Source of the DNA: a virus
IMG/VR virus record: IMGVR_UViG_3300042988_001121
Location: 1 to 64,000 of that record
Reading direction: 5' to 3' (one strand)
DNA length: 64,000 bases
The first letter of the stretch is position 1. Each line of letters starts with the position of its first letter. The notes under the pieces were generated by a model. That model worked only from the letters and a program-made list of their open reading frames with translations, made no database searches and was not told the DNA's origin. The position numbers and the translations under genes were made by a program. Positions 1 to 36,531 of this stretch are shown one piece after another.

Positions 1-768
1 GGGCCTATATTTACGACCCCTACTTTGAATACGTCAGCCACCGCCGCAGAAACCACTACTTCGGGAAATATATTGCAGAGGAAGGATCAGCCCCCTGCAA
101 TGTATTTCGGTATGAACTACGGAAATATACCCCATGTCCGTTATGCTTTCAAACGCGCCCCCGGCTTCTTTGATGTGGTTTGTTATACGGGAACTGGAAA
201 TCCTGGGCTGGTTGTGCCGCATAGTCTATCGGCAATACCGGAATTGATTCTCATAAAAGCAAGGAAATTTGGTGGATCGGGTTGGGAATGGATAATTCTC
301 CACATGGAAACAGCCCGTTTTTCATTTTTAGATAATGCCGCCATGTCGCTTGGCGCTTCAACCATCGTAACCAGTAGAACAAGTAACTCTATTACTTTAG
401 CTTCTGATTCGCGATATAACACCACGACTGAATACGTCGCTTACCTTTTTGCCACACTCCCCGGAATCAGCAAAATAGGCAGCTACACCGGAAATGGCTC
501 AAGCCAAACCATCAATTGCGGTTTTACTACTGGTGCAAGGTTTGTATTAATCAAGCGCACGGACTCCACTGGTGACTGGTACGTGTGGGATACAGTGCGT
601 GGGTTGACTTCATCAACTGATCCACATCTGAGCATGAATTCAACAGCCGCAGAAGTCACTACAGATGATTCTGTTGACCCAGATACCTCTGGTTTCATTG
701 TGAACCAAGACGCATCGACTAACATCAACGTCAATGCTGGCACATATCTGTACCTCGCAATTGCATAA
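1..768 (+). CDS. Tail fibre/virion protein C-terminal part (DUF7483-like), truncated by window edge
   Basis: The reading frame is open from base 1, so this is the last 255 residues of a longer protein; the TTG at 25 is merely the first start-like codon inside the window. A phrase resembling FDVVCYTGTGNPG, followed by a buried ELILIKAR strand and a Trp-rich stretch, is the pattern of the DUF7483 beta-sandwich module found repeatedly in phage tail fibres and capsid-decorating proteins. A second copy of the same type seems to begin near ISKIGSYTGNGSS (about residue 160), so at least two modules are tandem here. It lies directly upstream of a fibre-assembly-like gene and a fibre gene, which supports a distal tail or fibre role. 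The exact function and host ligand cannot be read from the sequence. Confidence 0.7.
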   Translation, partial: GPIFTTPTLNTSATAAETTTSGNILQRKDQPPAMYFGMNYGNIPHVRYAFKRAPGFFDVVCYTGTGNPGLVVPHSLSAIPELILIKARKFGGSGWEWIILHMETARFSFLDNAAMSLGASTIVTSRTSNSITLASDSRYNTTTEYVAYLFATLPGISKIGSYTGNGSSQTINCGFTTGARFVLIKRTDSTGDWYVWDTVRGLTSSTDPHLSMNSTAAEVTTDDSVDPDTSGFIVNQDASTNINVNAGTYLYLAIA

Positions 769-776
769 GGAACCCT

Positions 777-1337
777 ATGCCATACATCAATACAAAAACT
801 AAAAAATATCCTCTCTCATTTCTTGACATTCAGCAAGAAAATCCAATGACAAGTTTCGATGCTACATCGATTCCTGCTGCTTATGCGTGGGTGTTCCCAA
901 CACCAACTCCGACATACGATTCTTTGCTGCAATATGTCGTTGAAGGTACTCCCAAGAAAACTACTGATAAGACATACGAACAGACTTGGCAAGTAGTTGA
1001 TAAGTATACCACACAAGAAGAAATTGATGCAGCAATCGCAGCAAATGAAAAGTCTAAACTTGATGCAATGGTGCGCGAAGTAACTCAGATGGTTCAGAAT
1101 AAGCTAGATGATTTTGCCAAGTCAAGAAACTATGATTCTATTTTATCGGCAGCAACCTATGCAACATCAGCTATTCCTAAATTTCAACAGGAAGGTCAGG
1201 ATGCCGTGAATGTACGCGATACCACATGGGCGTCTCTTTATAAGATTATGACCGATGTTATGACCGGTAAACGTGCTGTACCAACTATTGCCGATATTAT
1301 GGCAGAGTTGCCTGTCATGGAATGGACAAATAAATAA
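777..1337 (+). CDS. Tail-fibre assembly/chaperone-like protein
   Basis: A 186-residue protein beginning MPYINTKTKKYPLSF, with ATG preceded by an AAGGAA ribosome site. The N-terminal half has a short Pro/Tyr-rich segment (PTPTPTYDSLL), and the middle holds a YEQTWQVVDKYTTQEEIDA stretch. This layout is common in small proteins coded next to tail fibres, where the first part describes a residue-poor beta region and the rest is a helical 'DUF4376-like' tail. The remainder is charged and helical, without membrane segments. Its position between two fibre genes suggests a fibre chaperone or a small fibre subunit. This is inference from context plus the recognisable EEIDAAIA helix; no catalytic motif is visible. 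Confidence 0.5.
   Translation: MPYINTKTKKYPLSFLDIQQENPMTSFDATSIPAAYAWVFPTPTPTYDSLLQYVVEGTPKKTTDKTYEQTWQVVDKYTTQEEIDAAIAANEKSKLDAMVREVTQMVQNKLDDFAKSRNYDSILSAATYATSAIPKFQQEGQDAVNVRDTTWASLYKIMTDVMTGKRAVPTIADIMAELPVMEWTNK
1329..1336 (+). promoter_or_regulatory. Late-promoter-like motif AATAAATA
   Basis: AATAAATA ends 22 bp before the ATG of the fibre gene at 1359. It matches the NATAAATA -10 element used for T4 and cyanophage late transcription. It overlaps the end of the preceding gene, so chance is possible. Confidence 0.4.
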
Positions 1338-1358
1338 TAGATCAATATCGGGTAAGAC

Positions 1359-2933
1359 ATGGCAATCACACTATCACAATATCTTCAAGTCGGGGCTAAT
1401 GGTCCAATTGGTATAACCGCTGGCGGCACGGGCGGCACAACTGCTGCTTCGGCTCGTGCTTCGCTAGGTGCGGCAGCGGCAGGTGCTAACACCGACATTA
1501 CTTCATTGTCAAGTGGTGTTTGGGCACCTTTGTTGAAAGGGTCTGGGAGCACTTATTCTGCGGCAGGAACAAATTTAGCTACAGCCGCCCCTATTGTTTC
1601 AGATACTGTGGTAGTCACGAGTAGCAGCGCAAGTGCATATTGTTTAGCACTTCCTGCATTTACAGATGATTATAAGAGCCAAAAAATAACAGTATATAAT
1701 CAGACCGCGTTGCCAATAAATGTTTATGCACAGGGAACTGGAACTATAACCTTAACACATACAGGCACTGCCCCTTCATTTTATACGATTCCTGCGATGG
1801 CTTCTGCCGTTTTTGACAGTGGGATTAGTGGAGCGAATGACAATAGATGGATTGTATCGAGTGCACAAGTTACCGACCCATCCGCCTTGACAGCCGCTGT
1901 TCCTGCCAATAAAGGTGGTACTGGTCAGGTTTCGTATACAGTTGGTGATATTCTCTATGCGTCAGGAACCACAACAATCAGTAAATTGATTGCTGCATCA
2001 ACTGGTTTTGCATTGATTTCAAATGGAGTCGGTGTTGCTCCTAGTTGGGGTAAAATTGATCTAACCACAACTGTTAGTGGTACTTTGCCGGTTGCGAATG
2101 GTGGCACTGGTGTTACCACATCAACTGGTTCTGGTAATAATGTTCTCAGTTCAAGTCCTACCTTAACAACTCCTATTTTATCAGCGGCAACGAGTTCAAC
2201 GGCAGGTGCTATTGGTTATAGTACCGGTGTTCTGACATATGGCGACGGGTCTTCAACCATATCAATTGCTAACTTGACAGGCACTCAGACATTTAGCAAC
2301 AAAACATTAAGTACAGGATGCTCGTGGGCGGGTGGTTTGATTACTCCTACTTATGGCGGTACAGGTGCTAATTTATCTGGTGCTGCTGGTGGTGGGGTTG
2401 CTTACTTTTTTGGTGGACAAATTTCTGTTACTTCGGCGGGAACAGCGGGTCAGGTTCTTCAATCAAATGGTGCATCGGCTCCTAGTTGGGTAACAATCTC
2501 TGGCGGTGCAACGCTTTCGGATGATACCACAACCAATGCATCTTATTATCCTGTCTTTGCTACCGCAACATCAGGAACAATGTCTACTGCCAAGGTTGCA
2601 TCAACGAAACTGAATTTTAACCCTTCTACGGGCACATTGTCAAGTACACAATTCAATGCCACATCGGATTCTGATGTTAAGACCAATGTAGTTGCCGCAG
2701 AAGGTATTGCTATTGTCAATCAATTGAATGGCGTTGAGTTTGACTGGAAAGATGGTACAGGTCATTCGGCAGGTGTAATTGCTCAGGATGTTGAAACTGT
2801 TTTGCCATTCTTGGTTCAGACTGATCCTATTCATGGAAAGAGCGTCAACTATCTTGGAATCATTGCGTATCTTATTCAGTCGGTCAAGGAACTAGATGCA
2901 CGAGTGAAAGAATTGGAGAAATTGAATGGCTAA
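1359..2933 (+). CDS. Tail fibre with C-terminal S74 intramolecular chaperone
   Basis: A 524-residue fibre. The N-terminal half is a glycine/threonine/serine-rich shaft with the typical phage-fibre phrases AGGTGGTTAASARASLG and LPVANGGTGVTTSTG. The last ~90 residues form a Peptidase_S74 (endosialidase-type) chaperone: the cleavage and folding motif SDSDVKT places Ser436 and Lys441 with the S-x4-K spacing of the family, followed by GVEFDWKDGTGHSAGVIAQDVE and a C-terminal coiled coil (LIQSVKELDARVKELEKL). In this family the domain drives trimerisation and then autocleaves before the serine. The gene overlaps the next one by 8 bp, implying translational coupling to the first RCC1 protein. The receptor-binding portion is not identifiable. 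Confidence 0.85.
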   Translation: MAITLSQYLQVGANGPIGITAGGTGGTTAASARASLGAAAAGANTDITSLSSGVWAPLLKGSGSTYSAAGTNLATAAPIVSDTVVVTSSSASAYCLALPAFTDDYKSQKITVYNQTALPINVYAQGTGTITLTHTGTAPSFYTIPAMASAVFDSGISGANDNRWIVSSAQVTDPSALTAAVPANKGGTGQVSYTVGDILYASGTTTISKLIAASTGFALISNGVGVAPSWGKIDLTTTVSGTLPVANGGTGVTTSTGSGNNVLSSSPTLTTPILSAATSSTAGAIGYSTGVLTYGDGSSTISIANLTGTQTFSNKTLSTGCSWAGGLITPTYGGTGANLSGAAGGGVAYFFGGQISVTSAGTAGQVLQSNGASAPSWVTISGGATLSDDTTTNASYYPVFATATSGTMSTAKVASTKLNFNPSTGTLSSTQFNATSDSDVKTNVVAAEGIAIVNQLNGVEFDWKDGTGHSAGVIAQDVETVLPFLVQTDPIHGKSVNYLGIIAYLIQSVKELDARVKELEKLNG

Positions 2934-4080
2934 TTTTCTATATAGCGGAACCAGTGGAACGCTAGAGGAAAAATATGTTACGTTCGATGAAATGGGGTTT
3001 GATTCTCCATCTAATTCTGCTGGATCGTTATGGGGTTGGGGAGACAATACAGATGGTCAATTAGGTCTTAACAATGTGACAAATGTAAGTTCTCCTGTTC
3101 AGATCGGTTCATTGACTGACTGGAAACAGGTGTCGATGGGAGGATATCATACAACAGCAATCAAAACAGATGGCACTCTTTGGAGCTGTGGAAATAATTT
3201 ATATGGTCAATTAGGACTCAATGACACGACTAAAAGAAGTTCACCCGTTCAAATAGGATCGTTGACTAATTGGAAATTAGTCAGTTGCGGAAGGTATCAT
3301 ACAACAGCAATTAAAACAGATGGCACGCTCTGGGTTTGGGGATATAACAACCAAGGACAATTAGGGCTTAACAATGTGACAAATATAAGTTCTCCTGTTC
3401 AAGTAGGTACAATGACTGACTGGAAAACATTGACTGGGAATTTGTATAATACGTTTTCTGTTAAGAACGATGGTTCATTGTGGGGTTGGGGCGGCAATAT
3501 TTTCGGTCAATTAGGACTTAATGACTATATATATAGAAGTTCACCGGTTCAAATAGGATCGTTGACTAATTGGAAACAAGTATCTATGTCAAGTGTCTTC
3601 TCTGTTGCCGCAATAAAGACAGATGGTTCATTGTGGGGGTGGGGGACAAATACTAACGGTCAAATTGGCTTAGGTAATACAACAGAATATTCTTCTCCTG
3701 TTCAAGTCGGAACGATGACTAACTGGAAAACATTGTCAACCGGTGGCGTTGCTAACGTTCTTGCTACAAAGACAGATGGTTCATTGTGGGCATGGGGTTA
3801 TAACTATGGTGGTCTTGGTCTAGGTGATAGCCTTGCCAGAAGCTCTCCTATTCAAGTCGGATCATTGACTAATTGGAAATCTGTTTCTTGTAGTACTTCA
3901 CAAGGTTCTTCCTTTGCTGTTAAAACAGATGGCACTCTCTGGGCTTTTGGGCAAAATGCCTCTAAAAATCTAGGACTCGGCGATAACGTCAGTAATTCTT
4001 CTCCTGTGCAAATCGGAACATCAACTGGATGGAAATCGGTTTCTACTGGATACACTTCTGCCATTGCAATCAAATACTAA
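2926..4080 (+). CDS. RCC1-type seven-bladed beta-propeller protein 1 (putative receptor-binding tail protein)
   Basis: A 384-residue protein. After a ~36-residue N-terminal leader it consists of seven tandem ~50-residue units, each starting with (S/T)LWxWGxNxxGQLGL and continuing SSPVQIGSLTNWKxVS...IKTDG. This is the RCC1 blade signature, and seven units make one closed propeller with nothing left over. No membrane segment or signal peptide is present. It starts inside the end of the fibre gene (GAATGGCTAAT), so the two are co-translated. RCC1 propellers in general bind proteins or glycans; a receptor-binding tip role is inferred from position. The protein differs from the two later RCC1 genes mainly at the blade loop positions, for example around YHTT. 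Confidence 0.8.
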   Translation: MANFLYSGTSGTLEEKYVTFDEMGFDSPSNSAGSLWGWGDNTDGQLGLNNVTNVSSPVQIGSLTDWKQVSMGGYHTTAIKTDGTLWSCGNNLYGQLGLNDTTKRSSPVQIGSLTNWKLVSCGRYHTTAIKTDGTLWVWGYNNQGQLGLNNVTNISSPVQVGTMTDWKTLTGNLYNTFSVKNDGSLWGWGGNIFGQLGLNDYIYRSSPVQIGSLTNWKQVSMSSVFSVAAIKTDGSLWGWGTNTNGQIGLGNTTEYSSPVQVGTMTNWKTLSTGGVANVLATKTDGSLWAWGYNYGGLGLGDSLARSSPIQVGSLTNWKSVSCSTSQGSSFAVKTDGTLWAFGQNASKNLGLGDNVSNSSPVQIGTSTGWKSVSTGYTSAIAIKY

Positions 4081-4089
4081 AGAAAAAAT

Positions 4090-4731
4090 ATGTACGCACT
4101 AATTCATAACAATCAAATTCAAGTTGGTCCTCGTCAATGGTCATATTCTTTCTTCAAGGAATATCTGGTTGAAGAAGGATTGGATTTTTCGGCGCTAACT
4201 GTTCGTGAGCAACCAACAGGTATTCACACATCAACTTATAGAATTGTTCCTGTAACAATTACAAAACACGCGAACGTTGAACCCATTTACGAACAACCTT
4301 CTGGTCCGTTTTGGACAATCTACGAAGATCGTGTTGAGGGTGAATACAAATCGGCTCCTGTTTCTATTGATGCAGTCAAATCTATTCTGAAGCAAAAAGC
4401 AGCAGAAGAAAGATATAAGAAAGAAACCTCAGGAACCAAGGCAATTATCAGTGTCGGAGAAGTTAATCTATATACTGATCGTGATACTCGCAAGACTTAT
4501 CTAGAGGCGTTGCAATTGATTCCTGACGATGTTTCTACATTCAATTTCAAATTCAGTAATGGATTCTTTCCGGTCAATAAAGGCGATCTGACTTTGATTG
4601 TTTCAACAATTGTTACTCATGTTCAGGCTGCATTTGATTGGGAAGCTGGTATTGTAGCTGCTATTGATTCTGCTACTACTATTGCTGAATTGAAGGCAAT
4701 TGTTATTGAGGAAAAGAAGAATGCCATCTAA
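4090..4731 (+). CDS. DUF4376-like tail fibre assembly protein
   Basis: A 213-residue protein of the type usually found beside fibre genes. The N-terminal ~90 residues hold a beta-rich segment (YALIHNNQIQVGPRQWSY, then FFKEYLVEEG). The C-terminal half contains the helix-strand pattern of DUF4376, with KAIISVGEVNLYTDRDTR and a final IAELKAIVIEEKKNAI helix. Known relatives are annotated as fibre chaperones or adhesin-assembly proteins; the precise job is inferred. The last 11 bp overlap the next RCC1 gene, whose GAGGA ribosome site is inside this gene's 3' end, so it is likely translated together with that propeller protein. Confidence 0.6.
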   Translation: MYALIHNNQIQVGPRQWSYSFFKEYLVEEGLDFSALTVREQPTGIHTSTYRIVPVTITKHANVEPIYEQPSGPFWTIYEDRVEGEYKSAPVSIDAVKSILKQKAAEERYKKETSGTKAIISVGEVNLYTDRDTRKTYLEALQLIPDDVSTFNFKFSNGFFPVNKGDLTLIVSTIVTHVQAAFDWEAGIVAAIDSATTIAELKAIVIEEKKNAI

Positions 4732-5923
4732 TTTGACTGGTTTCCGGGAGAATGGGGTTGATATCAGTGACCTTTATTTGAATGGCTCGGGTATCAATGG
4801 AACCGATGATCGTGGTCAGGTTTATGATTATTTGACTGATACTGGTAAGATAAATTATGAAACCGGTTCATTATGGAGTTGGGGTTGGAATGCATACGGA
4901 AATTTAGGACTAAACGACATTATAGATAGAAGTTCTCCTGTTCAAGTCGGTTCATTAACTAATTGGAAACAAATAACATCTTCATCTTCTGCTGGTCATT
5001 ACCTTTCTACCGCGATCAAAACAGACGGAACTCTTTGGAGTTGGGGCAAAAATCAATTTGGCGAATTGGGACTCAACGACACGACTAACCGAAACTCTCC
5101 TGTTCAAGTCGGTTCATTGACTAATTGGAAACAAGTGTCTACCGGGGGGTTTTTTTCTTTTGCGATCAAAACAGACGGAACTCTTTGGAGTTGGGGTAAG
5201 AACGATGTTGGTCAATTAGGACTCAATAACCAAACGAATATAAGCTCTCCTGTTCAAGTTGGTTCATTAACTAATTGGAAATTGGTTTCTTGTGGTGCAT
5301 ATCATCAATCGTTTATTGACAATTACGGGCAGTTGTGGAGTTGTGGAAATAATTTATACGGTCAATTAGGACTCAATAACCAAACGAATATAAGCTCTCC
5401 TGTTCAAGTTGGTTCATTAACTAATTGGAAATTGGTTTCTTGTGGAGACAGACACACAACAGCAATCAAAACAGACGGAACTCTTTGGAGTTGGGGTTGG
5501 AATGCGGTTGGTCAATTAGGTCTTAATGACACGGCATATAGAAGTTCACCTGTTCAAGTCGGAACAATGGCTAACTGGAAATCGGTTTTTTCTGGTGAGT
5601 TTATAACATTTGCCACAAAGACAGACGGATCATTGTGGGGATGGGGATATAATCTATACGGTCAATTGGGACTCAATGACACTACCGACAGAAGCTCTCC
5701 TGTTCAAGTTGGTTCTTTAACTAATTGGAAATCTGTCGCTGCGGGGCAATCTGTTGTATATGTAAAAAATGACGGGACACTATGGAGTGCTGGTAATAAT
5801 GCGCATGGTCAATTGGGGCTAGGTGATAATTCTCATAGAAGCTCTCCTGTTCAAGTTGGTTCGTTGACTAATTGGAAACTAATTTCAGGCGGTTCTATGG
5901 CGATAATTTCCACGAAAGGTTAA
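4721..5923 (+). CDS. RCC1-type seven-bladed beta-propeller protein 2
   Basis: The start at 4721 (MPSNLTGFRENG) is chosen because GAGGA lies 8 bp upstream; an upstream TTG at 4700 lacks support. The 400-residue protein has an N-terminal anchor (GFRENGVDISDLYLNGSG) and then seven RCC1 units beginning SLWSWG, TLWSWG (twice), QLWSCG, TLWSWG, SLWGWG and TLWSAG. Units 4 and 5 repeat almost exact DNA (NNQTNISSPVQVGSLTNWK occurs twice), pointing to recent unit duplication or conversion. The N-terminus resembles that of the third RCC1 protein (GFQINGVDTDTIFL), suggesting both plug into the same virion attachment point. Function as an alternative receptor-binding head is inference. Confidence 0.8.
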   Translation: MPSNLTGFRENGVDISDLYLNGSGINGTDDRGQVYDYLTDTGKINYETGSLWSWGWNAYGNLGLNDIIDRSSPVQVGSLTNWKQITSSSSAGHYLSTAIKTDGTLWSWGKNQFGELGLNDTTNRNSPVQVGSLTNWKQVSTGGFFSFAIKTDGTLWSWGKNDVGQLGLNNQTNISSPVQVGSLTNWKLVSCGAYHQSFIDNYGQLWSCGNNLYGQLGLNNQTNISSPVQVGSLTNWKLVSCGDRHTTAIKTDGTLWSWGWNAVGQLGLNDTAYRSSPVQVGTMANWKSVFSGEFITFATKTDGSLWGWGYNLYGQLGLNDTTDRSSPVQVGSLTNWKSVAAGQSVVYVKNDGTLWSAGNNAHGQLGLGDNSHRSSPVQVGSLTNWKLISGGSMAIISTKG

Positions 5924-5953
5924 ATACCATCCCACAAACAAACAATTTTCATT

Positions 5954-6511
5954 ATGAAAAAACTGAATCTAGGATCGGGGTACAAAAGATACCCCGATTT
6001 TATTAACATCGATCAAGATCATCATTGTAATCCCGATATTGTAACTGATCTAGAATCCCCGAATTGTCTCTCCATGATACCCGATGATTCGGTCGAGATA
6101 ATTCTTGCACATCACATTCTTGAACATATCGGAAGTAATTATATTCCGCTGCTCAAAGAATTATATCGAGTCGCCAAACACAAAGCAATTATTGATATAC
6201 GGGTTCCTCATCCGAATCATGAAATATTCTTGAATGACCCGACTCATAAAAGACCAATTACGGTTGAAGGTCTAAGATTGTTCTCAAAACAATATAACCT
6301 ACAAGAAATTCAAAGAGGCGGAAGTTCATCGACACTCGGAATCATGAATGACATTGATTTTGAGATTGTTCACTTTGATTACATTCATGATCCATATTAC
6401 GACAACATCAAGACAACTGCAACACCCGAGCAATTGGAAAGAATATTTCGTTCAGAAATAAATACGACTCTTGAAATTCACGTTGTTCTAACTGTTATTA
6501 AAAATGTTTGA
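5954..6511 (+). CDS. SAM-dependent methyltransferase
   Basis: A 185-residue class I methyltransferase of the compact type (Methyltransf_11-like). Motif I is KKLNLGSGYKRYPDFINID, where the LNLGSG loop binds S-adenosylmethionine and the aspartate ends strand 2. The acidic VTDLE follows, and the motif IV region is SVEIILAHHILEHI, with the typical 'HILEH' helix. Substrate is not evident. It sits between two RCC1 genes and overlaps the glycosyltransferase-like gene by 8 bp, so methylation of a sugar or of a tail protein is a reasonable guess. Such small methyltransferases also occur in bacterial polysaccharide clusters, a likely source of transfer. Confidence 0.8.
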   Translation: MKKLNLGSGYKRYPDFINIDQDHHCNPDIVTDLESPNCLSMIPDDSVEIILAHHILEHIGSNYIPLLKELYRVAKHKAIIDIRVPHPNHEIFLNDPTHKRPITVEGLRLFSKQYNLQEIQRGGSSSTLGIMNDIDFEIVHFDYIHDPYYDNIKTTATPEQLERIFRSEINTTLEIHVVLTVIKNV

Positions 6512-7829
6512 TTACCAAAATTCATCTATTATGCAAGCCGCCTTTGCTGCAAAGAGCATTGGTAGATCGATGGACATGTATGCGCCATTGAAAACGATTG
6601 CTCAGTATATCTATGCAATCGATAAGCTAGACGAGATTGCCTATATTCAAAATGAATTGAAGGATTACGAGGGTTCAGTTGCGACTCTCAACAAGATGGC
6701 ATCCATTTCGATGAATAATCAGGAAAAATATTCGATTAGAGCCAATCTTGCGAAGATGTACAATCATCTGAATAAACCAGAAGAATCGCTTGCTGAGTCA
6801 CAATTGAATGATATGGTGTCAAATGGTAATGACCTAGACACATGGATGGAAATGGCGTTCAGCTATTATCTGTTAGGTCAATATAATAAGTCCGAAGAAA
6901 TGATGCGCAAGATTTCTTGTATTGATAATATCTCGGATGAATTAAGAGGTCGAGTTGAATACAACCTAGGCTCCTATGATATTGAGCATGGCGAGTTCAA
7001 GAAAGGAATTCGTGGCTTCATTGATGTTGGACATAAGATCGGTATTTGGCATCCGAAGGGCATTGATGGTGTTCCTACATGGAAGGGCGAAACCGATAAA
7101 CAATTCATTGTCATTCATGGCGAAGGCGGTATCGGTGACGAATTGATCAACTTTCGTTTCACCAATAATATCAAGTCAATGGGATTGACTCCTATCTGGA
7201 TTACTAATCACAAAGAACTGGTTCCTGTGTTTGAGCGCCATGACGTGAAGACGATAATGAATCATCAAATTGATAAAGAGAATTCGTATCAGATCAATGC
7301 AATGTACTTACCAATTGTACTAGACCTTGATGCAGATCAGTTATGGAGTGGCGCTTATTTGATTCCTTGTTCCGAACATGTTGCCAAGTGGCGTGATATA
7401 TTACCGAGCGGTAGAAAGATCGGTGTCAAGTGGAGTGGCAATCCTGCCTATGAACAGGACCTACATCGAGGGCTGACAACCGATTTTATTGATGCATTGG
7501 AATTCGATGCAGTGAAGGTGAATCTTCAGATCGATGCGTTGAAGGATCATTATTTCTCGGTTCCAATAAATAGTATTGAAGACACATTGGCAATCTTATC
7601 GCTTGTTGATGTTACGGTTACTTCATGCACATCGGTTGCTCACATGGCAGGGGCAATTGGTTCAAAAGTTATTGTATGCCCTCCTATTGCTTGCTACTAT
7701 GTATGGCTAGGGCGGAATGATGGATACAGTAACTGGTACGGCAAAAACACAATGGTGGTTCGACAGACGAAACACAATAATCGTGATGATGTTTTGGTGA
7801 AGGTTAACGAATTACTGAGTAAGGTTTAA
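6504..7829 (+). CDS. TPR-repeat protein with GT9-like glycosyltransferase C-terminal half
   Basis: A 441-residue protein. Residues ~1-190 form helical hairpins that read as tetratricopeptide repeats (YEGSVATLNKMASIS, YNKSEEMMRKIS). The C-terminal half follows a GT-B glycosyltransferase pattern: FIVIHGEGGIGDELINFRF resembles the ADP-heptose glycosyltransferase (GT9) N-domain loop, RKIGVKWSGNPAYEQD the central G-W/SGNP strand, and VDVTVTSCTSVAHMAGAIG the donor-site DLVITxDTxxxHLAGA motif with the canonical aspartate replaced by a serine/cysteine. TPR plus GT-B fusions transfer sugars to proteins or polysaccharides in many bacteria. Overlap with the methyltransferase and the neighbouring RCC1 genes suggests a role in glycosylating the tail or a surface polymer. 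The donor-site variation makes activity uncertain. Confidence 0.65.
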   Translation: MFDYQNSSIMQAAFAAKSIGRSMDMYAPLKTIAQYIYAIDKLDEIAYIQNELKDYEGSVATLNKMASISMNNQEKYSIRANLAKMYNHLNKPEESLAESQLNDMVSNGNDLDTWMEMAFSYYLLGQYNKSEEMMRKISCIDNISDELRGRVEYNLGSYDIEHGEFKKGIRGFIDVGHKIGIWHPKGIDGVPTWKGETDKQFIVIHGEGGIGDELINFRFTNNIKSMGLTPIWITNHKELVPVFERHDVKTIMNHQIDKENSYQINAMYLPIVLDLDADQLWSGAYLIPCSEHVAKWRDILPSGRKIGVKWSGNPAYEQDLHRGLTTDFIDALEFDAVKVNLQIDALKDHYFSVPINSIEDTLAILSLVDVTVTSCTSVAHMAGAIGSKVIVCPPIACYYVWLGRNDGYSNWYGKNTMVVRQTKHNNRDDVLVKVNELLSKV

Positions 7830-7832
7830 TAT

Positions 7833-8978
7833 ATGGCAAGCGGGTTTCAGATTAACGGAGTTGATACCGATACAATTTTTCTTAATCGTTCGGATACGAT
7901 TTTGGATAGTGTTTCTGTGCCCGGTAAGTTGTGGAGTTGGGGGAAAAATTCATACTACGGTCAATTGGGACTCAATGACACTATCAACAGAAGCTCACCT
8001 GTTCAAGTTGGAGTATTGACTAATTGGAAACAAATCGGTGGCGGTAACGATTCCCTAATTGCAATTAAAACAGACGGTACACTTTGGAATTGGGGTTATA
8101 ATTCACATGGTCAATTAGGACTAGGGGATATTTCTCATAGAAGCTCTCCTGTTCAAGTCGGTACGTTGACTAATTGGAAACTAATTTCACAACATGCATC
8201 TCAATATAGCAGAATATCAATCAAAACAGATGGAACTCTTTGGAGTTGGGGATATAATAATAACGGCGAGCTAGGGTTAAATGATGTAAACCACAGAAGT
8301 TCTCCTGTTCAAGTTGGTTCATTGACTAACTGGAAATATATCAGTTCGGTTAATCACGCAATTGCGATTAAAACAGATGGAACTCTTTGGAGTTGGGGAT
8401 ATAATCCATATGGTCAATTAGGACTAGGGGATATTTCTCATAGAAGCTCTCCTGTTCAAGTCGGTACGTTGACTAATTGGAAATCGGTTTCTTGCGGTGC
8501 TAATCACAACGCAGTGATTAAAACAGATGGAACTCTTTGGAGTTGGGGGCAAAATACATACGGAAGTTTGGGTCTAAACGATACCTCGCCAAGAAGCTCT
8601 CCTGTTCAGGTTGGTTCATTGACTAATTGGAAATCAGTTTCTTGTGGAAACTACCATGTTCTTGCGATTAAAACAGATGGTACATTGTGGAGTTGGGGTA
8701 TTAATGGCAACGGGCAATTGGGGCTAAATGACTTAACCTATAGAAGCTCTCCTGTTCAAGTCGGTACGTTGACTAATTGGAAATCGGTTTCTTGCGGTGA
8801 TGCACATACTACCGCAATTAAAACAGATGGAACTCTTTGGAGTTGGGGAACGCACAACAATGGTCAATTAGGTCTTAATGGAACGACACAAGTAAGCTCT
8901 CCTGTTCAAGTTGGTTCATTGACTAATTGGAAATCTGTTGCAGGTAGTTTCAGAGCATCTTTAGCAATCTCATCATAA
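7833..8978 (+). CDS. RCC1-type seven-bladed beta-propeller protein 3
   Basis: A 381-residue protein starting MASGFQINGVDTDTIF. It has seven RCC1 blades (KLWSWG, TLWNWG, then five TLWSWG), each ~51 residues with SSPVQVG(S/T)LTNWK and AIKTDG at fixed places. Variation is concentrated in short segments between the tryptophan strand and SSPVQVG, and just before AIKTDG, which would be exposed loops on one propeller face. The whole-gene DNA is a direct-repeat array of ~153-bp units, so recombination between blades or between the three genes is easily imagined. Together with the genes at 2926 and 4721 it makes a family of three. A late-type promoter lies at its end, ahead of the sulfotransferases. 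Confidence 0.8.
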   Translation: MASGFQINGVDTDTIFLNRSDTILDSVSVPGKLWSWGKNSYYGQLGLNDTINRSSPVQVGVLTNWKQIGGGNDSLIAIKTDGTLWNWGYNSHGQLGLGDISHRSSPVQVGTLTNWKLISQHASQYSRISIKTDGTLWSWGYNNNGELGLNDVNHRSSPVQVGSLTNWKYISSVNHAIAIKTDGTLWSWGYNPYGQLGLGDISHRSSPVQVGTLTNWKSVSCGANHNAVIKTDGTLWSWGQNTYGSLGLNDTSPRSSPVQVGSLTNWKSVSCGNYHVLAIKTDGTLWSWGINGNGQLGLNDLTYRSSPVQVGTLTNWKSVSCGDAHTTAIKTDGTLWSWGTHNNGQLGLNGTTQVSSPVQVGSLTNWKSVAGSFRASLAISS

Positions 8979-8981
8979 ATA
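8974..8981 (+). promoter_or_regulatory. Late promoter CATAAATA
   Basis: CATAAATA 28 bp before the GTG of the first sulfotransferase. It is a good match to the T4/cyanophage late element NATAAATA and lies across the end of the RCC1 gene, implying separate late expression of the sulfotransferase block. Confidence 0.6.
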
Positions 8982-9008
8982 CCAATCCAGCAATCTTTAT
9001 TATTCAAA

Positions 9009-9800
9009 GTGAAACAATTTTTCTTTCTATCTGGTCTACCAAGATCGGGTTCAACTGTTCTTGCTAGTATCCTTAATCAGCATCCCGAGATTCACGTAAC
9101 GCCAACTTCTCCGTTACTTGATTTACTTTACCTCAATGAACAGAACTACCGATCAAATCCATCGGTAATCGCGAATCCAACTCATACCTCATATGAGTCT
9201 ATTTCAAAATCAATCATTGAAGGTACATGGAAGCACGTTAATAAACCAATCATCGTTGATAAACACAGAGCATGGGCAAGAAATATTCCTACCATTCGAC
9301 GTGTGTTTGAAACCGATCCAAAGGTTATTCTGACAGTTCGCTCGATTCCCGAGATTGTTGCCAGTTTCTTTACTCTCCTAAGAAAAACAAAACAATCGCC
9401 ACATTACATTGATCAAATTCTATTACAAAGAAATGCACCGATCAATGATATGAACCGCGCATATATTCTGTGGCATGATTTTATTGCAAATACCGTTGAA
9501 TCGGCGTTGATCGGGTTCAAAACAAATCGAGCAAATATTCATCTGGTTGATTACAATGACTTGATACAATGTCCTGAAGAAGAACTGAAAAAGATATATC
9601 AGTTCCTTGCGCTTCCATCATATCAACATGATCTAAACAATATCGTTAATGATACCAATGACGATGATCTCGCGGCATGGGGAATCGAGAATCTTCATCA
9701 AATACGCCCGGTATTGAAAAGAACATCATCAGATGCAAAAGAAATACTCGGTGATGTTTATCATGTCGTCAATTCATTGAATGCCGAGTTCTGGAGATAA
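9009..9800 (+). CDS. PAPS-dependent sulfotransferase, copy 1
   Basis: A 263-residue protein with GTG start. The N-terminal LSGLPRSGSTVLASIL is the 5'-phosphosulfate-binding loop of sulfotransferases (Sulfotransfer family; the PRSGST loop binds the PAPS phosphosulfate). A 3'-phosphate-binding strand/helix is suggested by VILTVRSIPEIVASFF, with an arginine and following serine at the usual place. The family transfers sulfate from PAPS to a sugar or tyrosine hydroxyl. The C-terminal DDDLAAWGIENLHQIRP matches the second copy, which starts 3 bp downstream. PAPS must be supplied by the host unless a kinase is coded elsewhere. Substrate is unknown; fibre or surface glycan is inferred from the neighbourhood. 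Confidence 0.85.
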   Translation: MKQFFFLSGLPRSGSTVLASILNQHPEIHVTPTSPLLDLLYLNEQNYRSNPSVIANPTHTSYESISKSIIEGTWKHVNKPIIVDKHRAWARNIPTIRRVFETDPKVILTVRSIPEIVASFFTLLRKTKQSPHYIDQILLQRNAPINDMNRAYILWHDFIANTVESALIGFKTNRANIHLVDYNDLIQCPEEELKKIYQFLALPSYQHDLNNIVNDTNDDDLAAWGIENLHQIRPVLKRTSSDAKEILGDVYHVVNSLNAEFWR

Positions 9801-9802
9801 TT

Positions 9803-10585
9803 ATGTTTTATATGATCGGTCTACCAAGATCGGGTTCAACTGTTCTTGCTAGTATCCTTAATCAACATCCCGAGATTCATGTAACTCCAACTTCTCCTTT
9901 GCTGGATCAATTGGTTGCGAATCAGGATATCTATCATTCATTACAGGCAGTTCGCGCAAATCCTGTTCCGGGTCAACTGGAAAATATCACCCATTCCATT
10001 ATCAATGGTATGTACAGTCATATCAAGAAGCCTATTATCATTGACAAGAATCGGGGATGGGGAAAGAATGTCAGGGATGCAACCACACTTCTTGGAAAAG
10101 AAATGAAAATGATTGCGACCACTCGTTCACTTCCTGCGGTCATGGAATCTTGGCTCCGCATTATTAAAAAGAACCCCAATAGTTTCGTTCACCGTGAACT
10201 AAAAGGTCTTGTTACCGATGCTCGAATCCTTTCCTATATGTGGGAACATCAGGTCAAAGATTGTGTTGAAAGTCTTCATACCGCTATTCAATACAATAAG
10301 AAAAATGTATTGATCGTTGATTATGATGCTCTGGTAGATAACCCGGTCGAACAATTAAATCGAGTCGTTGAGTTTACGGGCGCATCTGATTTCACATTTG
10401 ATCTGAATAACATTAAGAGCGAAACGAAGGATGATGACCTTGCTGCATGGGGTATTGATGGCATGCATACTGTTCAGCCATCTCTGAAGCGTTTAAACGC
10501 GATTACAGGCGTTTTAACACAGGAGCAGTATGTTCGGTTCAAATCGCTTGAAAAATCGTTTGTAGGCGTTTTTAATGCGTTCTAG
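9803..10585 (+). CDS. PAPS-dependent sulfotransferase, copy 2
   Basis: A 260-residue paralogue of the preceding gene, with IGLPRSGSTVLASILNQHPE as the PAPS-binding loop and MIATTRSLPAVMESW as the probable 3'-phosphate site. The two copies agree closely over the first ~45 residues and again near the C-terminus (KDDDLAAWGIDGMHTVQP), but differ in the middle third. That is what one expects if the cofactor site is conserved while the acceptor pocket diverged after tandem duplication. The gene overlaps the DUF2061 gene by 11 bp. Distinct substrate from copy 1 is likely but unproven. Confidence 0.85.
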   Translation: MFYMIGLPRSGSTVLASILNQHPEIHVTPTSPLLDQLVANQDIYHSLQAVRANPVPGQLENITHSIINGMYSHIKKPIIIDKNRGWGKNVRDATTLLGKEMKMIATTRSLPAVMESWLRIIKKNPNSFVHRELKGLVTDARILSYMWEHQVKDCVESLHTAIQYNKKNVLIVDYDALVDNPVEQLNRVVEFTGASDFTFDLNNIKSETKDDDLAAWGIDGMHTVQPSLKRLNAITGVLTQEQYVRFKSLEKSFVGVFNAF

Positions 10586-10766
10586 CCACATTCTAACATT
10601 GCTCAAGACAATTACTTGGCGAATAACAGGAAGTGGAGCGACTTTTGCAATATCTTACATCTATACAGGAAGTACTTCATTTGCCTCTGGTATTGCACTG
10701 ACTCAGATGGTTGTCAATAGCATCCTTTACTATGTACATGAAAGAATTTGGAATTATGTTGAATAG
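10575..10766 (+). CDS. DUF2061 small membrane protein
   Basis: A 63-residue protein with the DUF2061 pattern: LLKTITWRITGSGATF at the start, two hydrophobic helices, and the closing signature LYYVHERIWNYVE. Members are short inner-membrane proteins of unknown function, often coded beside sulfate-activation or sulfotransferase genes, and here it directly overlaps the second sulfotransferase. A role in holding or supplying the sulfation machinery at the membrane is inference. It ends 11 bp inside the oxygenase gene. Confidence 0.75.
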   Translation: MRSSHILTLLKTITWRITGSGATFAISYIYTGSTSFASGIALTQMVVNSILYYVHERIWNYVE

Positions 10767-11367
10767 AATTTATATTGTTGATGATTTTTATCCTAATCCT
10801 GATGGCGTGATGGAGAATGTCTTTAATGACGAACGAGAAGATAACTCGGGCGGCAATTACGCGGGTGTCATGAATTCAACCAATTTCTTTACTCCTGAAC
10901 ATCAAAGAGTGTTTCAGCAATTGGTCGGGCATCCTGTTTCGGCAGGAACATCTTTAACCGGAAAGTTTCGTTTCTCGTGTGTCAATGATACTTATAAGCA
11001 GAATATTCATTTTGATGCCGGTGGTGAGAATCTTGCATGGGCAGGTGTTGTCTATATGCAGAAACATTATGAAGAAGGAATCGAAGGAACTTCATTTTAT
11101 AAACACAAGGAAACTGGATTAGAAGAAATACCTAGGTCGATTGAAGGTTGTTCTAAATATGGATGGAATTCAATTGCTGATCTTAAGAAGTTTCTGGATA
11201 CCGATGGTGTCGATGATTCGAAATGGATCAAGACACTAACAGTTCCTTATAAGTACAATCGATTGGTATTATTTCGCCCTTGGTTGTTTCATGCTCCGGG
11301 AAAGGCTTTCGGCAGTTCAATTGAAACATCACGAATCGTTCAAACAATTTTTCTTAATCAGGAATAA
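10756..11367 (+). CDS. 2OG-Fe(II) oxygenase-like protein (DUF6445-like)
   Basis: The start at 10756 (MLNRIYIVDDFYPNPDG) is preferred, since IYIVDDFY is the usual first strand of these proteins; ATG 10738 and TTG 10711 are upstream options. The 203-residue double-stranded beta-helix has an HxD iron motif in NIHFDAGGENLAWAGVVYM, and the distal histidine plus a 2-oxoglutarate-binding arginine in PWLFHAPGKAFG...SRIVQTIF. Such phage enzymes hydroxylate proteins, sugars or nucleic acids; the substrate cannot be told. It follows the sulfotransferase block with overlap, suggesting a shared modification pathway. The annotation as DUF6445 rests on the DDFYPNPDGVM and FYKHKETG phrases. Confidence 0.7.
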   Translation: MLNRIYIVDDFYPNPDGVMENVFNDEREDNSGGNYAGVMNSTNFFTPEHQRVFQQLVGHPVSAGTSLTGKFRFSCVNDTYKQNIHFDAGGENLAWAGVVYMQKHYEEGIEGTSFYKHKETGLEEIPRSIEGCSKYGWNSIADLKKFLDTDGVDDSKWIKTLTVPYKYNRLVLFRPWLFHAPGKAFGSSIETSRIVQTIFLNQE

Positions 11368-11369
11368 AC

Positions 11370-11666
11370 ATGCCATTTCCAACATCAAGCGCTTCGTTCA
11401 ATGCAACGCCCGGTGCATATGATTACTCTGAAATTCTAGGTGCATTCTATACTATGTTCGAGACACGGTTGACTGCAATTGAAACTAACCAACTTGCATT
11501 AAATACTGATATTGCATCTATTAAAAATAATATCCAGACTCTTATGGATCGTGCGACCGATGCAAATAAAGGTATTGTCACTAAGGGTGCAGCGGAGTTT
11601 TCGCCCGAAGGTTATCAGACATATTTGCAACTCAAGGAATATTACACCGCACGCGGAATTGGATAA
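11370..11666 (+). CDS. Small putative virion protein
   Basis: A 98-residue protein, MPFPTSSASFNATPGAYDYS, with a central heptad-like helix (LTAIETNQLALNTDIASIKNNIQTLMDR) and a GAAEFSPEGYQTYLQLKEYY tail. It starts 3 bp after the oxygenase and ends 5 bp before the large structural gene. I do not recognise the family. The coiled coil and position suggest a small structural or chaperone subunit belonging with the next gene. Confidence 0.5.
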   Translation: MPFPTSSASFNATPGAYDYSEILGAFYTMFETRLTAIETNQLALNTDIASIKNNIQTLMDRATDANKGIVTKGAAEFSPEGYQTYLQLKEYYTARGIG

Positions 11667-11670
11667 TTAA

Positions 11671-14433: not shown

Positions 14434-14441
14434 AGGTTTAC

Positions 14442-14735
14442 ATGGCTAAGATCGAACTATTAGAATTTGTCCCTATTATTCTTGCTGTGGTCGCAATTAT
14501 TTTTTCTTCTCTTAAAATGAGGAAAGTAAGAAGACTGTCTGACATGATTTATTGTATCGTTTCAGCGGTTTCTGCTATTCTTTTGATCATAGCACAGACA
14601 AGTTGGTGGAATTCCGCTGTCATTGAAAAGAATCTAATTGGTACTTGGTTGTCAAATCAAATTTGGTTGGTGTTTAATACACTTGCAATGATTGCAATCA
14701 TATTACAAACATATCCGAGAGCAGACGGAAAATGA
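14442..14735 (+). CDS. Small membrane protein, three to four helices
   Basis: A 97-residue protein starting MAKIELLEFVPI; ATG 14442 is chosen because AAAGGTTTAC is upstream, while the TTG at 14412 lies inside the previous gene. Hydrophobic segments at ~8-24 (VPIILAVVAIIFSSL), ~37-53 (MIYCIVSAVSAILLIIA) and ~75-91 (LVFNTLAMIAIILQT) indicate three helices. It overlaps the next membrane protein gene by ATGA. I do not recognise it. It could be a holin-type or superinfection-immunity protein, but no specific motif is present. Confidence 0.55.
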   Translation: MAKIELLEFVPIILAVVAIIFSSLKMRKVRRLSDMIYCIVSAVSAILLIIAQTSWWNSAVIEKNLIGTWLSNQIWLVFNTLAMIAIILQTYPRADGK

Positions 14736-15106
14736 AATGCTTTTTGATGCGGGAAAGGTTTCTGATCGTAGAAATGATCAGTGCCATTTCTTTTTTTGTC
14801 ATGTCTATTGCTCTGACAGGAATAAAGTATTCTTCTCCTGACGGGCAAGGCTCTTTATTTTGGGTAGTGTTGTTTACGGTGTTTGCTCTTTTGCAGGGTG
14901 CCGGAATTGCATTTCTTCGTGATATGATTTTGCTCAGAATTATTATGACATGGGTAGCAGGAAGTGTCTGGACATGGATTAGCTACGCAAATATGAATAG
15001 TGTATTGGTTGTCCCTATGTTTCTCGTTGGGATTGCTAATTTTGTTTCTTTCGTTGACCTTTCCAATCGTGCAACAATCGATTGGAGAGAATTTTTCCAA
15101 GAGTAA
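14732..15106 (+). CDS. Small membrane protein, about four helices
   Basis: A 124-residue protein starting MKCFLMRERFLIVEM at an ATGA overlap with the previous gene. It has predicted hydrophobic helices near residues 12-30, 43-62, 66-85 and 89-106. The C-terminus, SNRATIDWREFFQE, is soluble and lies just ahead of the neck gene. No family recognised. The pair with the previous gene looks like a two-component membrane unit. Confidence 0.55.
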   Translation: MKCFLMRERFLIVEMISAISFFVMSIALTGIKYSSPDGQGSLFWVVLFTVFALLQGAGIAFLRDMILLRIIMTWVAGSVWTWISYANMNSVLVVPMFLVGIANFVSFVDLSNRATIDWREFFQE

Positions 15107-15112
15107 GCCAAC

Positions 15113-16069
15113 ATGATTACCTCAAGACAAGGCTTGATAGATTATGCGCTCCGTAAATTGGGTGCACCAGTGATTGAAATCAATATCGATGTTTCTCAGG
15201 TAGAGGATAGAGTCGATGAAGCATTACAATTTTTTCAGGACTTCCATTATGATGCTACAGAGAGATTGTACCTCAAGCACCAGATAACAGGAACAATAAT
15301 TACGGTTTCGGATGCAACGAACTTTACTGTCGGCGAGAATGTTGTGTGTAGTAACGGAACTACGTTTGCGATTGATAGCAAAACACCAACAACCCTCATC
15401 ACAAAAAATTGTTATAACGCACAGGGTATTGATAAGCAGCCTGTGCCAGCATTATCAACAATTATCGGACAGACTTCTGGCGCAACCGCGACTGTCGTAT
15501 CAAAAGTTGCTGGTGACACAGAAAACGGATTTGTTACTGTCGGTGAAATGGTCACTGGTGTGACTCGGGTTCTTCCTTGGAGTGGTGCAACCAGCAAGAC
15601 TAATTATTATTTCGATCCAAAGTATCAGACAATTATTAGTTCATTTGCTAATATCAGTTCCACTTCAATGATCTATTTTGAGCAATTGCAGAGTCACATT
15701 GCTTTATTGGATCAATTACTAAAACCAATTGAGTCTATTTCTTTTAATCAGAAAATGAATAGCGTTCGCATTGACATGGATTGGAGCGAAGCGACTATTG
15801 GTGCTTTCCTGATTTTTGACTGTTTCAGAATTCTTGATCCAGAAGTATTCACGAAAATATACAATGATCGTATGCTGAAAAAGTTGGTCACAGCAAAGAT
15901 CAAATATCAGTGGGCAAGTAACACACAGAAATATCAAGGAATTCAGCTTCTTGGTGGGGTTACTATTGATGCATCAACTTTAATGGCACAGGCAGTCGCT
16001 GAAATCGAAGCCGCTGAAGCTGAGATTAGGGATTCTTATGAAATTCCTCCTATCGGGTTTATAGCATGA
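15113..16069 (+). CDS. 13: Neck protein, T4 gp13-like
   Basis: A 318-residue protein matching the T4 gp13 head-to-tail neck protein. The start IDYALRKLGAPVIEINIDVSQVEDRV...ALQFFQDFHYD and the end LLGGVTIDASTLMAQA...PPIGFIA are the family's conserved ends. Between residues ~55 and ~150 it carries an inserted beta-rich stretch (ITVSDATNFTVGENVV, then IIGQTSGATATVVS) that does not align with T4 gp13 and resembles small Ig-like surface modules. gp13 with gp14 closes the filled head and joins the preformed tail. It is separated from gp14 here by a lysis cassette, unlike T4. Confidence 0.85.
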   Translation: MITSRQGLIDYALRKLGAPVIEINIDVSQVEDRVDEALQFFQDFHYDATERLYLKHQITGTIITVSDATNFTVGENVVCSNGTTFAIDSKTPTTLITKNCYNAQGIDKQPVPALSTIIGQTSGATATVVSKVAGDTENGFVTVGEMVTGVTRVLPWSGATSKTNYYFDPKYQTIISSFANISSTSMIYFEQLQSHIALLDQLLKPIESISFNQKMNSVRIDMDWSEATIGAFLIFDCFRILDPEVFTKIYNDRMLKKLVTAKIKYQWASNTQKYQGIQLLGGVTIDASTLMAQAVAEIEAAEAEIRDSYEIPPIGFIA

Positions 16070-34834: not shown

Positions 34835-34859
34835 AAAAGGGCACTTCGGTGCCCTTTTT
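34835..34859 (+). terminator. Strong, probably bidirectional terminator after capsid gene
   Basis: GGGCAC, a TTCG tetraloop and GTGCCC form a 6-bp GC-rich stem (extended by A-T pairs to ten), followed by TTTTT on the + strand and preceded by AAAA, giving a T-run on the minus strand. It lies 15 bp after the capsid stop and its end touches the minus-strand endonuclease stop codon (34859-34861), so it can end transcription from both converging genes. Confidence 0.95.
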
Positions 34860-36499: not shown

Positions 36500-36531
36500 A
36501 AATACCCCAACAAAATAATTCATAGTATATC

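Follow-up and report, generated by a model that had tools for sequence, protein, structure and literature searches.

Three RCC1-type propeller genes as a putative three-slot receptor-binding head set in the tail locus of a T4-like phage

Results

The DNA analysed here, hereafter the window, comprises positions 1 to 64,000 of the IMG/VR virus record IMGVR_UViG_3300042988_001121. On the plus strand, a cassette opens with a tail fibre gene carrying a Peptidase_S74 chaperone domain (1359..2933), which overlaps the start of propeller gene A (2926..4080; 384 amino acids). This is followed by a gene matching DUF4376 and phrog_10508 (tail fibre; 4090..4731), propeller gene B (4721..5923; 400 amino acids), a methyltransferase-like gene of phrog_6636 with a Pfam match only below the cut-off (5954..6511), a gene for a TPR protein (6504..7829), propeller gene C (7833..8978; 381 amino acids) and two sulfotransferase genes (9009..9800 and 9803..10585), all on the plus strand. 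The order S74 fibre, head A, DUF4376 gene, head B, TPR gene, head C, sulfotransferase is also present in the Synechococcus phage S-SRM01 and in many uncultured phages; megablast with window positions 1-14400 found no close DNA relative among cultured phages. Baseplate wedge and fibre genes lie upstream of the propellers, a setting expected of genes for receptor-binding proteins. Together with the S74 and DUF4376 neighbours, they bear out the tail-locus placement of an earlier note on this DNA. The three genes do not adjoin one another, as that note had it, the DUF4376, methyltransferase and TPR genes being interleaved.

The DUF4376 gene is flanked by an RCC1 gene on either side in 19 of 20 loci, and used as a query it retrieved only 4 viral loci; its product is possibly an assembly factor. 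The C-terminal half of the TPR protein gave a weak match to glycosyltransferase family 9 in one of ten family members (E 0.0043), and a search of solved structures returned repeat-type proteins only (positions 8-180), so that we did not retain it as a glycosyltransferase. A diversity-generating retroelement acting on the propeller genes was likewise considered and rejected: the 178-kb record, which may be incomplete, contains no match to RVT_1 (reverse transcriptase).

Each propeller protein contains seven stretches matching Pfam PF00415 (E-values 1.5e-68, 2.9e-83 and 6.4e-81 for A, B and C, respectively), with scores of 227.6-274.7 bits against a curated cut-off of 21.7. Splitting at the G-x-L-W motif likewise yielded seven units per protein, each 48-54 amino acids long, and apart from these units only an N-terminus of 30-48 residues is present. 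The earlier claim of seven RCC1-type units per gene and little else therefore holds. All 21 PF00415 matches in the 178,209-base record of this virus fall within A, B or C, and the head of B is 62-63% identical to those of A and C. The N-termini, hereafter pegs, occupy 2926..3021 (+) in A (32 amino acids), 4721..4864 (+) in B (48 amino acids) and 7833..7922 (+) in C (30 amino acids). For B, the open reading frame is listed as 4700-5923 with a TTG start; an ATG at 4721, preceded by GAGGAAA, is the more likely start.

AlphaFold2 models of A (pLDDT 90.4, pTM 0.85) and C (pLDDT 89.7, pTM 0.86) each display 28 strands (7x4), the predicted fold being a closed propeller of seven four-stranded blades, with most N-terminal residues below pLDDT 50-60. 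The predictions for A and C thus agree with the expectation of a seven-bladed propeller with a separate N-terminal peg. Model C superimposes on HERC2 RLD2 with a Z score of 53.3 (rmsd 1.6 over 352 residues), on UVR8 and RCC1 with Z scores of about 50 and about 49, respectively, and on BLIP-II with a Z score of 30.7.

The earlier note had also asked whether the blade number of relatives is always seven. Among non-redundant complete ORFs, 133 of 143 contain 7, 14, 21 or 28 units; counting distinct complete ORFs, the window's three included, multiples of seven were obtained in 140 of 152. This count left aside some further loci and the duplicates of the virus from which the window comes. The ten exceptions among the 143 representatives have 41, 27, 12, 12, 8, 6, 6, 5, 3 and 2 units; several contain truncated or weak units, and head A of S-SRM01 is a clean six-unit protein. 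Seven blades are hence close to a rule, but not always found.

In line with the earlier observation that exposed segments vary while blade cores stay constant, the entropies of the AB and CD loops in the window were 1.47 and 2.56 bits compared to 0.62 and 0.58 bits for the BC and DA loops, and 1.47 and 2.16 compared to 0.62 and 0.72 with another alignment. The AB and CD loops lie on one face of the propeller, and strand order in the models places both chain ends on the opposite, constant face, formed by the BC and DA loops. Greater variability on one face was present in all of 16 phages of our choosing (uncorrected p<0.05 in 14; units shorter than 41 residues dropped). Moreover, one face varied more in 118 of 118 phage proteins, drawn from 122 seven-unit representatives. 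Among RCC1 proteins encoded in bacterial genome records this held for 8 of 12 (p 6e-8, kinship ignored), and the asymmetry there is slight. The bacterial proteins are the 12 of 16 ORFs with six or more usable units, of which the first seven were taken, and may include prophages. On the variable face of the window proteins pN/pS was 0.56, with a bootstrap interval of 0.37-0.77 that lies entirely below 1, and thus gives no sign of positive selection there; synonymous differences reach 0.70, near saturation. Across 11 sets, pN/pS exceeded 1 in four, and the bootstrap interval lay above 1 in one (L114) of seven that were bootstrapped.

Long exact repeats connect blades of the same gene. In B, an 86-bp tract is shared by blades 3 and 4 (5210-5295 = 5360-5445, +; maximum 35 bp in 200 synonymous shuffles), and C contains tracts of 74 bp (8107-8180 = 8410-8483, +) and 60 bp (8440-8499 = 8740-8799, +), where the maximum over 200 synonymous shuffles was 36 bp; within A, one 30-bp exact tract was found. 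The tracts inside B and inside C point to recent blade copying. Copying between the three genes is indicated less clearly: exact tracts shared by B and C total 212 bp versus a shuffle maximum of 88, A and C share one tract of 24 bp, within the shuffle range, and A and B share none of at least 24 bp. Whole heads also appear to have been exchanged, as three locus pairs, L018/L023, L114/L149 (gene B) and L099/L114 (gene C), show a breakpoint within the peg or right next to it.

We then compared pegs and heads across 11 loci chosen by us from 25, some of them closely related. For pegs, the nearest relative in another phage occupied the same slot in 33 of 33 cases, those of the window being of the slot-A, slot-B and slot-C type with L127_A, L127_B and L127_C as closest relatives; for heads, this held in only 14 of 33. 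Slot thus governs the pegs and hardly the heads, as expected for a conserved end, presumably serving attachment, joined to a variable distal domain; this pattern is most pronounced in the fibres of PollyC and SeaP1-4 discussed below. The set includes S-SRM01 with its six-unit head A, L042, whose head C runs off the contig, L085, whose head B has eight detected units, and L099, represented by the second of its two C-type genes. Left out were L069, L070 and L129 (head C on a longer N-terminus), L079 and L082 (like L085 and L077), L086, L097, L098 and L105 (incomplete), L096 and L102 (fused heads) and L074, L083 and L122 (no DUF4376 match).

Within these 11 triplets, heads of different slots in the same phage are 65.6% identical, compared to 54.6% and 54.3% between phages, whereas pegs of different slots score alike within and between phages (mean local score 22.1 versus 21.1). 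The nearest head is found in the same locus for all three window heads, for 21 of 33 heads in the triplets and for 26 of 72 in a first, wider set; likeness within a phage is therefore not universal. Where the heads of a phage are alike, three different receptors are not suggested.

The anchor GF..NGVD, described earlier as shared by the second and third protein, is indeed common to B and C, the only two occurrences of the DNA pattern in the window (one with a mismatch; 0.04 expected), but it does not generalise over the 11 phages. A PHROG search with the three window pegs gave no match, seven pegs of relatives gave two weak ones (E 0.17 and 0.034), and tblastn with the peg peptide of C found none among phage records. 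Strict patterns built for the relatives' A, B and C pegs retrieved 46 ORFs, 30 of them distinct. Since all 30 carry RCC1 units, no peg with another kind of head was seen with these narrow patterns.

Discussion

Taken together, these results make it likely that A, B and C are receptor-binding heads, each with a slot of its own on the contractile tail of a T4-like phage. All three would be closed seven-bladed RCC1-type propellers bearing a short slot-specific peg, which may dock each of them at a separate tail position, as the slot kinship of the pegs suggests. Because both chain ends lie on the constant face, the variable face with the AB and CD loops would point away from the particle and may contact the cell surface, probably glycans. 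Copying of blades inside a gene and, with weaker indications, from one of the three genes to another, together with exchange of heads at or close to their junction with the peg, would keep the core alike and leave diversity on one face, in a ring that stays at seven blades. Speculatively, the heads or the host surface may be modified by the products of the TPR and sulfotransferase genes.

The earlier note had proposed alternative, interchangeable receptor-binding heads. Receptor binding remains the best reading of a variable face in a tail locus. Since every gene comes with a particular peg and gene neighbourhood, and the three recur as a conserved set, simultaneous display of the heads is more probable than their use as alternatives, and the breakpoints suggest interchangeability over evolution only.

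Would the same proteins serve as surface decoration or structural spacers, adhering weakly and unspecifically to biofilm, mucilage or other particles? The frequent likeness of heads within one phage is what avidity or decoration predicts, and some ORFs are many-copied (28 and 41 units). However, variation on one face in every phage protein compared is typical of specific recognition. So is the divergence of the distal fibre part in the T7-like phages PollyC and SeaP1-4, whose fibre joins a distal RCC1 region to an N-terminus resembling the T7 tail fibre (in the two phages tested, the match falls just short of the cut-off): identity is 99-100% for the terminase and 95-100% for fibre residues 1-300, but 22-99% for alignment columns 401-900. 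We thus consider decoration without true receptor recognition unlikely.

Still less weight can be given to non-virion proteins acting in the infected cell, for instance by inhibiting host or defence proteins. Although BLIP-II, an RCC1-like inhibitor, is a structural neighbour and enzyme genes sit between the heads, the pegs conserved per slot, the S74 and DUF4376 neighbours, the domain fusions and the reported detection of distant relatives in virions make this reading very improbable. The family name, regulator of chromosome condensation, and several papers suggest DNA-condensing or internal virion proteins instead. RCC1 itself binds nucleosomes (PDB titles), and the authors on phAPEC6 proposed a role in ordering DNA for such proteins. 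The RCC1-like proteins W70_237-239 of Escherichia phage W70 were reportedly all detected in virions by mass spectrometry with 233, 196 and 141 spectra, the authors mentioning DNA encapsidation (PMC11370258), and RCC1-like GAP32_001 was found in GAP32 virions by proteomics (PMC5259590). On the other hand, the genes studied here neighbour baseplate and fibre genes, RCC1 regions occur in fusion with Ig-type domains (Ig/TIG/fn3 in L017, L026 and L002) and with the T7-type fibre N-terminus, and a single variable face is ill-suited to generic DNA binding. This function is accordingly the least probable of those considered.

The receptor-binding reading implies that an RCC1 phage family often labelled DNA-condensing is probably a host-recognition kit: PHROGs places the three families that best match the window proteins under DNA/RNA metabolism, and papers treat such proteins as condensing DNA, whereas their genes here have the surroundings of tail adhesins. 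If this is right, many uncultured phages and the cultured cyanophage S-SRM01 hold a testable receptor-binding set, and propellers offer a ready-made modular binding scaffold. The text of the S-SRM01 paper mentions neither mass spectrometry nor RCC1 nor condensation, and in our literature search neither virion proteomics nor binding data turned up for this phage or any of its close relatives. More tentatively, the cassette could be a platform of three fixed pegs and a pool of heads, in which blade gene conversion, junction exchange and selection on one face create new seven-part surfaces, the phage thereby presenting at one time three heads that are related without being identical. In that case the cassette would be the viral counterpart to a combinatorial binding scaffold and would do without a mutator enzyme, and recognition heads would be what many phage genes with names referring to chromosome condensation encode. 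The family also provides a natural experiment on a repeat protein that keeps an exact blade number and yet copies blades and diversifies one face.

Among known systems, the RCC1/RLD propellers (RCC1, HERC2 RLD2, UVR8) share the fold of model C and likewise have seven units; the window proteins differ by their viral tail locus, very regular units of ~50 residues, slot-specific pegs and one variable face, and the Ran nucleotide exchange and nucleosome binding of RCC1 proper would not be expected in a phage. Bacterial BLIP-II also has an RCC1-like propeller fold, but is a beta-lactamase inhibitor, and its chain, at about 270 residues, is shorter. In W70, three RCC1-like genes lie in tandem, and the window proteins match phrog_4219, the PHROG given for W70_237-239. 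However, those three have a common N-terminal MLEM-(L/M)-NL where the window has three pegs, and with much diverged units they are distant relatives, W70_238 matching only below the cut-off; no annotated tail gene lies in the surrounding 20 kb. In the T7-like Pseudomonas phages PollyC and SeaP1-4, the RCC1 region is the distal, most variable part of the fibre, but here with a T7-type N-terminus, an alanine-rich stalk and degenerate units (6-8 detected), and no three-slot cassette was seen within the 9-11 kb examined. Finally, as described in PMC4901313, the phi11 RBP (five blades), PRD1 P2 (five, distorted) and phiKZ gp131C (seven; function unconfirmed there) place a beta-propeller at the baseplate or as a receptor-binding head, as proposed here; compared by description, they are other proteins, two of the three with five blades.

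Three Genes for Predicted Seven-Bladed Propellers

All 21 PF00415 matches in the 178,209-base virus record, of which the window is bases 1-64,000, fall within three plus-strand genes, A (2926-4080; 384 aa), B (4700/4721-5923; 400-407 aa, depending on the start) and C (7833-8978; 381 aa). For B, the ATG at position 4721, preceded by a ribosome-binding-like GAGGAAA, agrees with relatives better than the TTG at position 4700. Each product consists of seven RCC1 units of 48-54 residues (the head) and an N-terminus of 30-48 residues (the peg), with hardly anything more; head B is 62-63% identical to heads A and C. A and C were modelled with AlphaFold2 using alignments of window and locus proteins. 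Both models comprise 28 strands (A: mean pLDDT 90.4, pTM 0.85; C: 89.7 and 0.86), their N-termini being for the most part of low confidence. Solved structures of RCC1-like domains match model C around its entire ring (HERC2 RLD2, Z 53.3; UVR8, ~50; RCC1, ~49; BLIP-II, 30.7). For A and C, the models thus support the proposal of the earlier note that these proteins fold into seven-bladed propellers with a separate N-terminus.

Four queries, three of them RCC1 and one DUF4376, retrieved loci of relatives from IMG/VR, which were complemented with the cultured Synechococcus phage S-SRM01 and BUCT-ZZ01. The unit count is a multiple of seven in 140 of 152 distinct complete ORFs, including A, B and C of the window. 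Likewise, 133 of 143 representatives contain 7 (122), 14 (8), 21 (2) or 28 (1) units, where the seven-unit queries bias the sample to seven-unit proteins, a bias that does not account for 14, 21 and 28. As to whether the blade number is always seven, as the earlier note had asked, the representatives thus give a multiple of seven with ten exceptions. Since six or eight units are rare although blades are visibly copied, the repeat counts point to selection for closed rings. Head A of S-SRM01 (L059 7710-8744) has six units, representing either a true six-blade ring or a repeat collapsed during assembly. Single ORFs with 27 (L101 1647-5945), 28 (L036 3157-8634) and 41 detected units (L087 4363-12066) probably comprise several propellers per chain.

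Pegs Follow the Slot and Heads Often Resemble Those of Their Own Phage

We compared pegs and heads in 11 hand-chosen loci with clear A, B and C slots, several of which are closely related, so that the cases are not independent. Each of the 33 pegs has its nearest relative from another phage in the same slot, whereas just 14 of 33 heads do, with a random expectation of 11. Correspondingly, the mean peg score is 57.6 for the same slot of another phage, and 22.1 and 21.1 for other slots of the same and of other phages, respectively. Heads in different slots of a single phage are on average 65.6% identical (33 pairs), as compared with 54.6% for heads of different phages in the same slot (165 pairs) and 54.3% in different slots (330 pairs). 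For 21 of 33 heads, including all three of the window, the nearest head overall belongs to the same phage; in a wider first set of loci with at least two heads, this applies to only 26 of 72. Within-phage likeness is hence common, not universal. The window heads are 58-63% alike, and share 45-57% with those of S-SRM01 and the locus L042. These patterns indicate that heads are either made alike inside a phage, as in many cases, or swapped, and that the pegs keep their place.

Three breakpoints were found inside or next to the peg. A head of L018 is 91% identical to an L023 head on a different peg, whereas the gene whose peg matches carries a head just 57% alike. The B heads of L114 and L149 are identical and follow diverged pegs, the remainder of the stretch being 99% identical. 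L099 contains two C-type genes, and the head of the second is shared with the L114 C gene (at least 97% in most 60-base steps, 78% in one), the likeness stopping inside the peg. Moreover, exact tracts of 86, 74 and 60 bp connect different blades within B and C, as compared to a longest tract of 36 in 200 synonymous-codon shuffles. The fibre of the Pseudomonas phage SeaP1 (L067 3615-6317) has an exact 37-residue tandem duplication in its RCC1 region, absent from SeaP4, as if a blade portion had been newly gained, or through an assembly error.

One Face of the Predicted Propeller Is Variable

Faces were assigned from the strand order of the models; in this predicted topology the AB and CD loops would lie on one face, and opposite them the two chain ends together with the BC and DA loops. 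Loop entropies in the window are 1.47 (AB) and 2.56 bits (CD) versus 0.62 (BC) and 0.58 (DA), or, in another alignment, 1.47, 2.16, 0.62 and 0.72, respectively. In all 16 phages tested AB+CD is larger than BC+DA, with an uncorrected permutation p<0.05 for 14 of them; the exception in a comparison of nine sets is L038, where BC (2.25) is slightly above AB (2.17). The excess is present in 118 of 118 phage seven-unit proteins (mean difference 0.76 bit), compared with 8 of 12 among RCC1 proteins taken from records of bacterial genomes (0.11; Mann-Whitney p 6e-8, kinship of the proteins being ignored). The within-phage share of diversity is 37% for BC, 57% for CD, 62% for strands, 69% for DA and 71% for AB. 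BC loops differ between phages, and thus tolerate change yet are uniform within a phage.

In all 11 sets, the variable face has the greater pN/pS, which exceeds 1 in four of them, and bootstrapping supports a value above 1 in one of seven sets tested (L114), which suggests that positive selection acts in some relatives. For the window, pN/pS on this face is 0.56 with a bootstrap interval below 1 (0.37-0.77) and synonymous differences near saturation, which does not show positive selection. A search of the 178,209-base record for a reverse transcriptase yielded none.

The Cassette and Its Neighbours

The region upstream of the window was read from a 125,892-base contig (G001) that has the A, C and DUF4376 genes of the window in identical form, and contains baseplate wedge genes and fibres. 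The cassette runs S74-chaperone fibre, head A, DUF4376 (matching a tail-fibre PHROG), head B, methyltransferase, TPR, head C and sulfotransferases. The order is comparable in S-SRM01, as it is in many uncultured phages, with the methyltransferase and TPR genes sometimes downstream of head C. Among 66 loci compared, none with an RCC1 protein identical to that of another, 20 have a DUF4376 homologue; RCC1 genes stand on either side of it in 19, and in the remaining locus it lies at a contig edge. Within the stretch fetched, S74 occurs in 16 of these 20 loci, TPR in 18, sulfotransferase in 15 and methyltransferase in eight. In the remaining 46 loci, the RCC1 genes come with no DUF4376 match in the stretch examined.

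Head C adjoins a tandem sulfotransferase pair (9009-10585, both phrog_27463), with homologues in 38 of the 66 RCC1 loci; candidate substrates are the heads, the fibres or host glycans. The TPR gene (6504-7829) belongs to a family tied to the cassette with a conserved C-terminal half, which, given a weak GT9 match in one of ten members, may be a glycosyltransferase, making the protein a possible TPR-guided protein glycosyltransferase. A small gene (777-1337) matches phrog_4998, to which W70_130, listed among W70 virion proteins (PMC11370258), belongs. Upstream of the window (L061, G001:31000-50300), two consecutive giant ORFs of 2108 and 1503 aa (5207-11533 and 11544-16055, gap 10 bases) contain "VNEG..." repeats, Calx-beta-like by eye; phrog_358 matches parts of both in order, and they represent either one very long split tail gene or two genes. 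A homing/HNH endonuclease-like gene (34859-36523, phrog_3339) lies on the minus strand amid plus-strand genes.

RCC1 Proteins in Other Phages

In the T7-like Pseudomonas phages PollyC and SeaP1-4, a tail-fibre gene has an RCC1 region as its distal part and is flanked by internal virion protein/transglycosylase genes on one side and holin/terminase genes on the other. The Phage_T7_tail-like N-terminus, tested for PollyC and SeaP3, scores E ~7e-5, slightly under the Pfam cut-off. Identity among these phages is 99-100% for terminases, 95-100% for fibre residues 1-300 and 22-99% for columns 401-900. Heads of other relatives are fused to Ig-type domains (TIG, He_PIG, fn3). Three tandem RCC1-like proteins of Escherichia phage W70 were detected in virions by mass spectrometry (PMC11370258); they have a common N-terminal peptide and a diverged RCC1 signal only. 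Similarly, GAP32_001 was detected in virions, with several homologues in 121Q and PBEC04 (PMC5259590), and phAPEC6 has eleven (PMC7247149). Among the products that share <50% identity between the jumbo phages fEgEco12 and Ecwhy_1, two carry the annotation of chromosome condensation regulator (PMC13070987).

Discussion

The earlier note suggested that the three propellers are interchangeable, alternative receptor-binding heads. Taken together, the T7-like fibre position, the Ig-type fusions and the virion detection in other phages favour receptor-binding heads over a role in DNA condensation. Alternative use appears less likely: the three slots are kept as a set with different pegs, an arrangement that makes it more likely that the three heads are displayed together. 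The within-phage likeness of the heads suggests related ligands or avidity.

The excerpts of the literature examined on phage RCC1 proteins do not propose receptor binding, and a three-slot RCC1 cassette appears in no title or abstract opening among the literature matches listed, subscription papers lying outside this scope. Receptor binding by propeller domains in general is already known from phi11 and PRD1, and has been suggested for phiKZ (PMC4901313).
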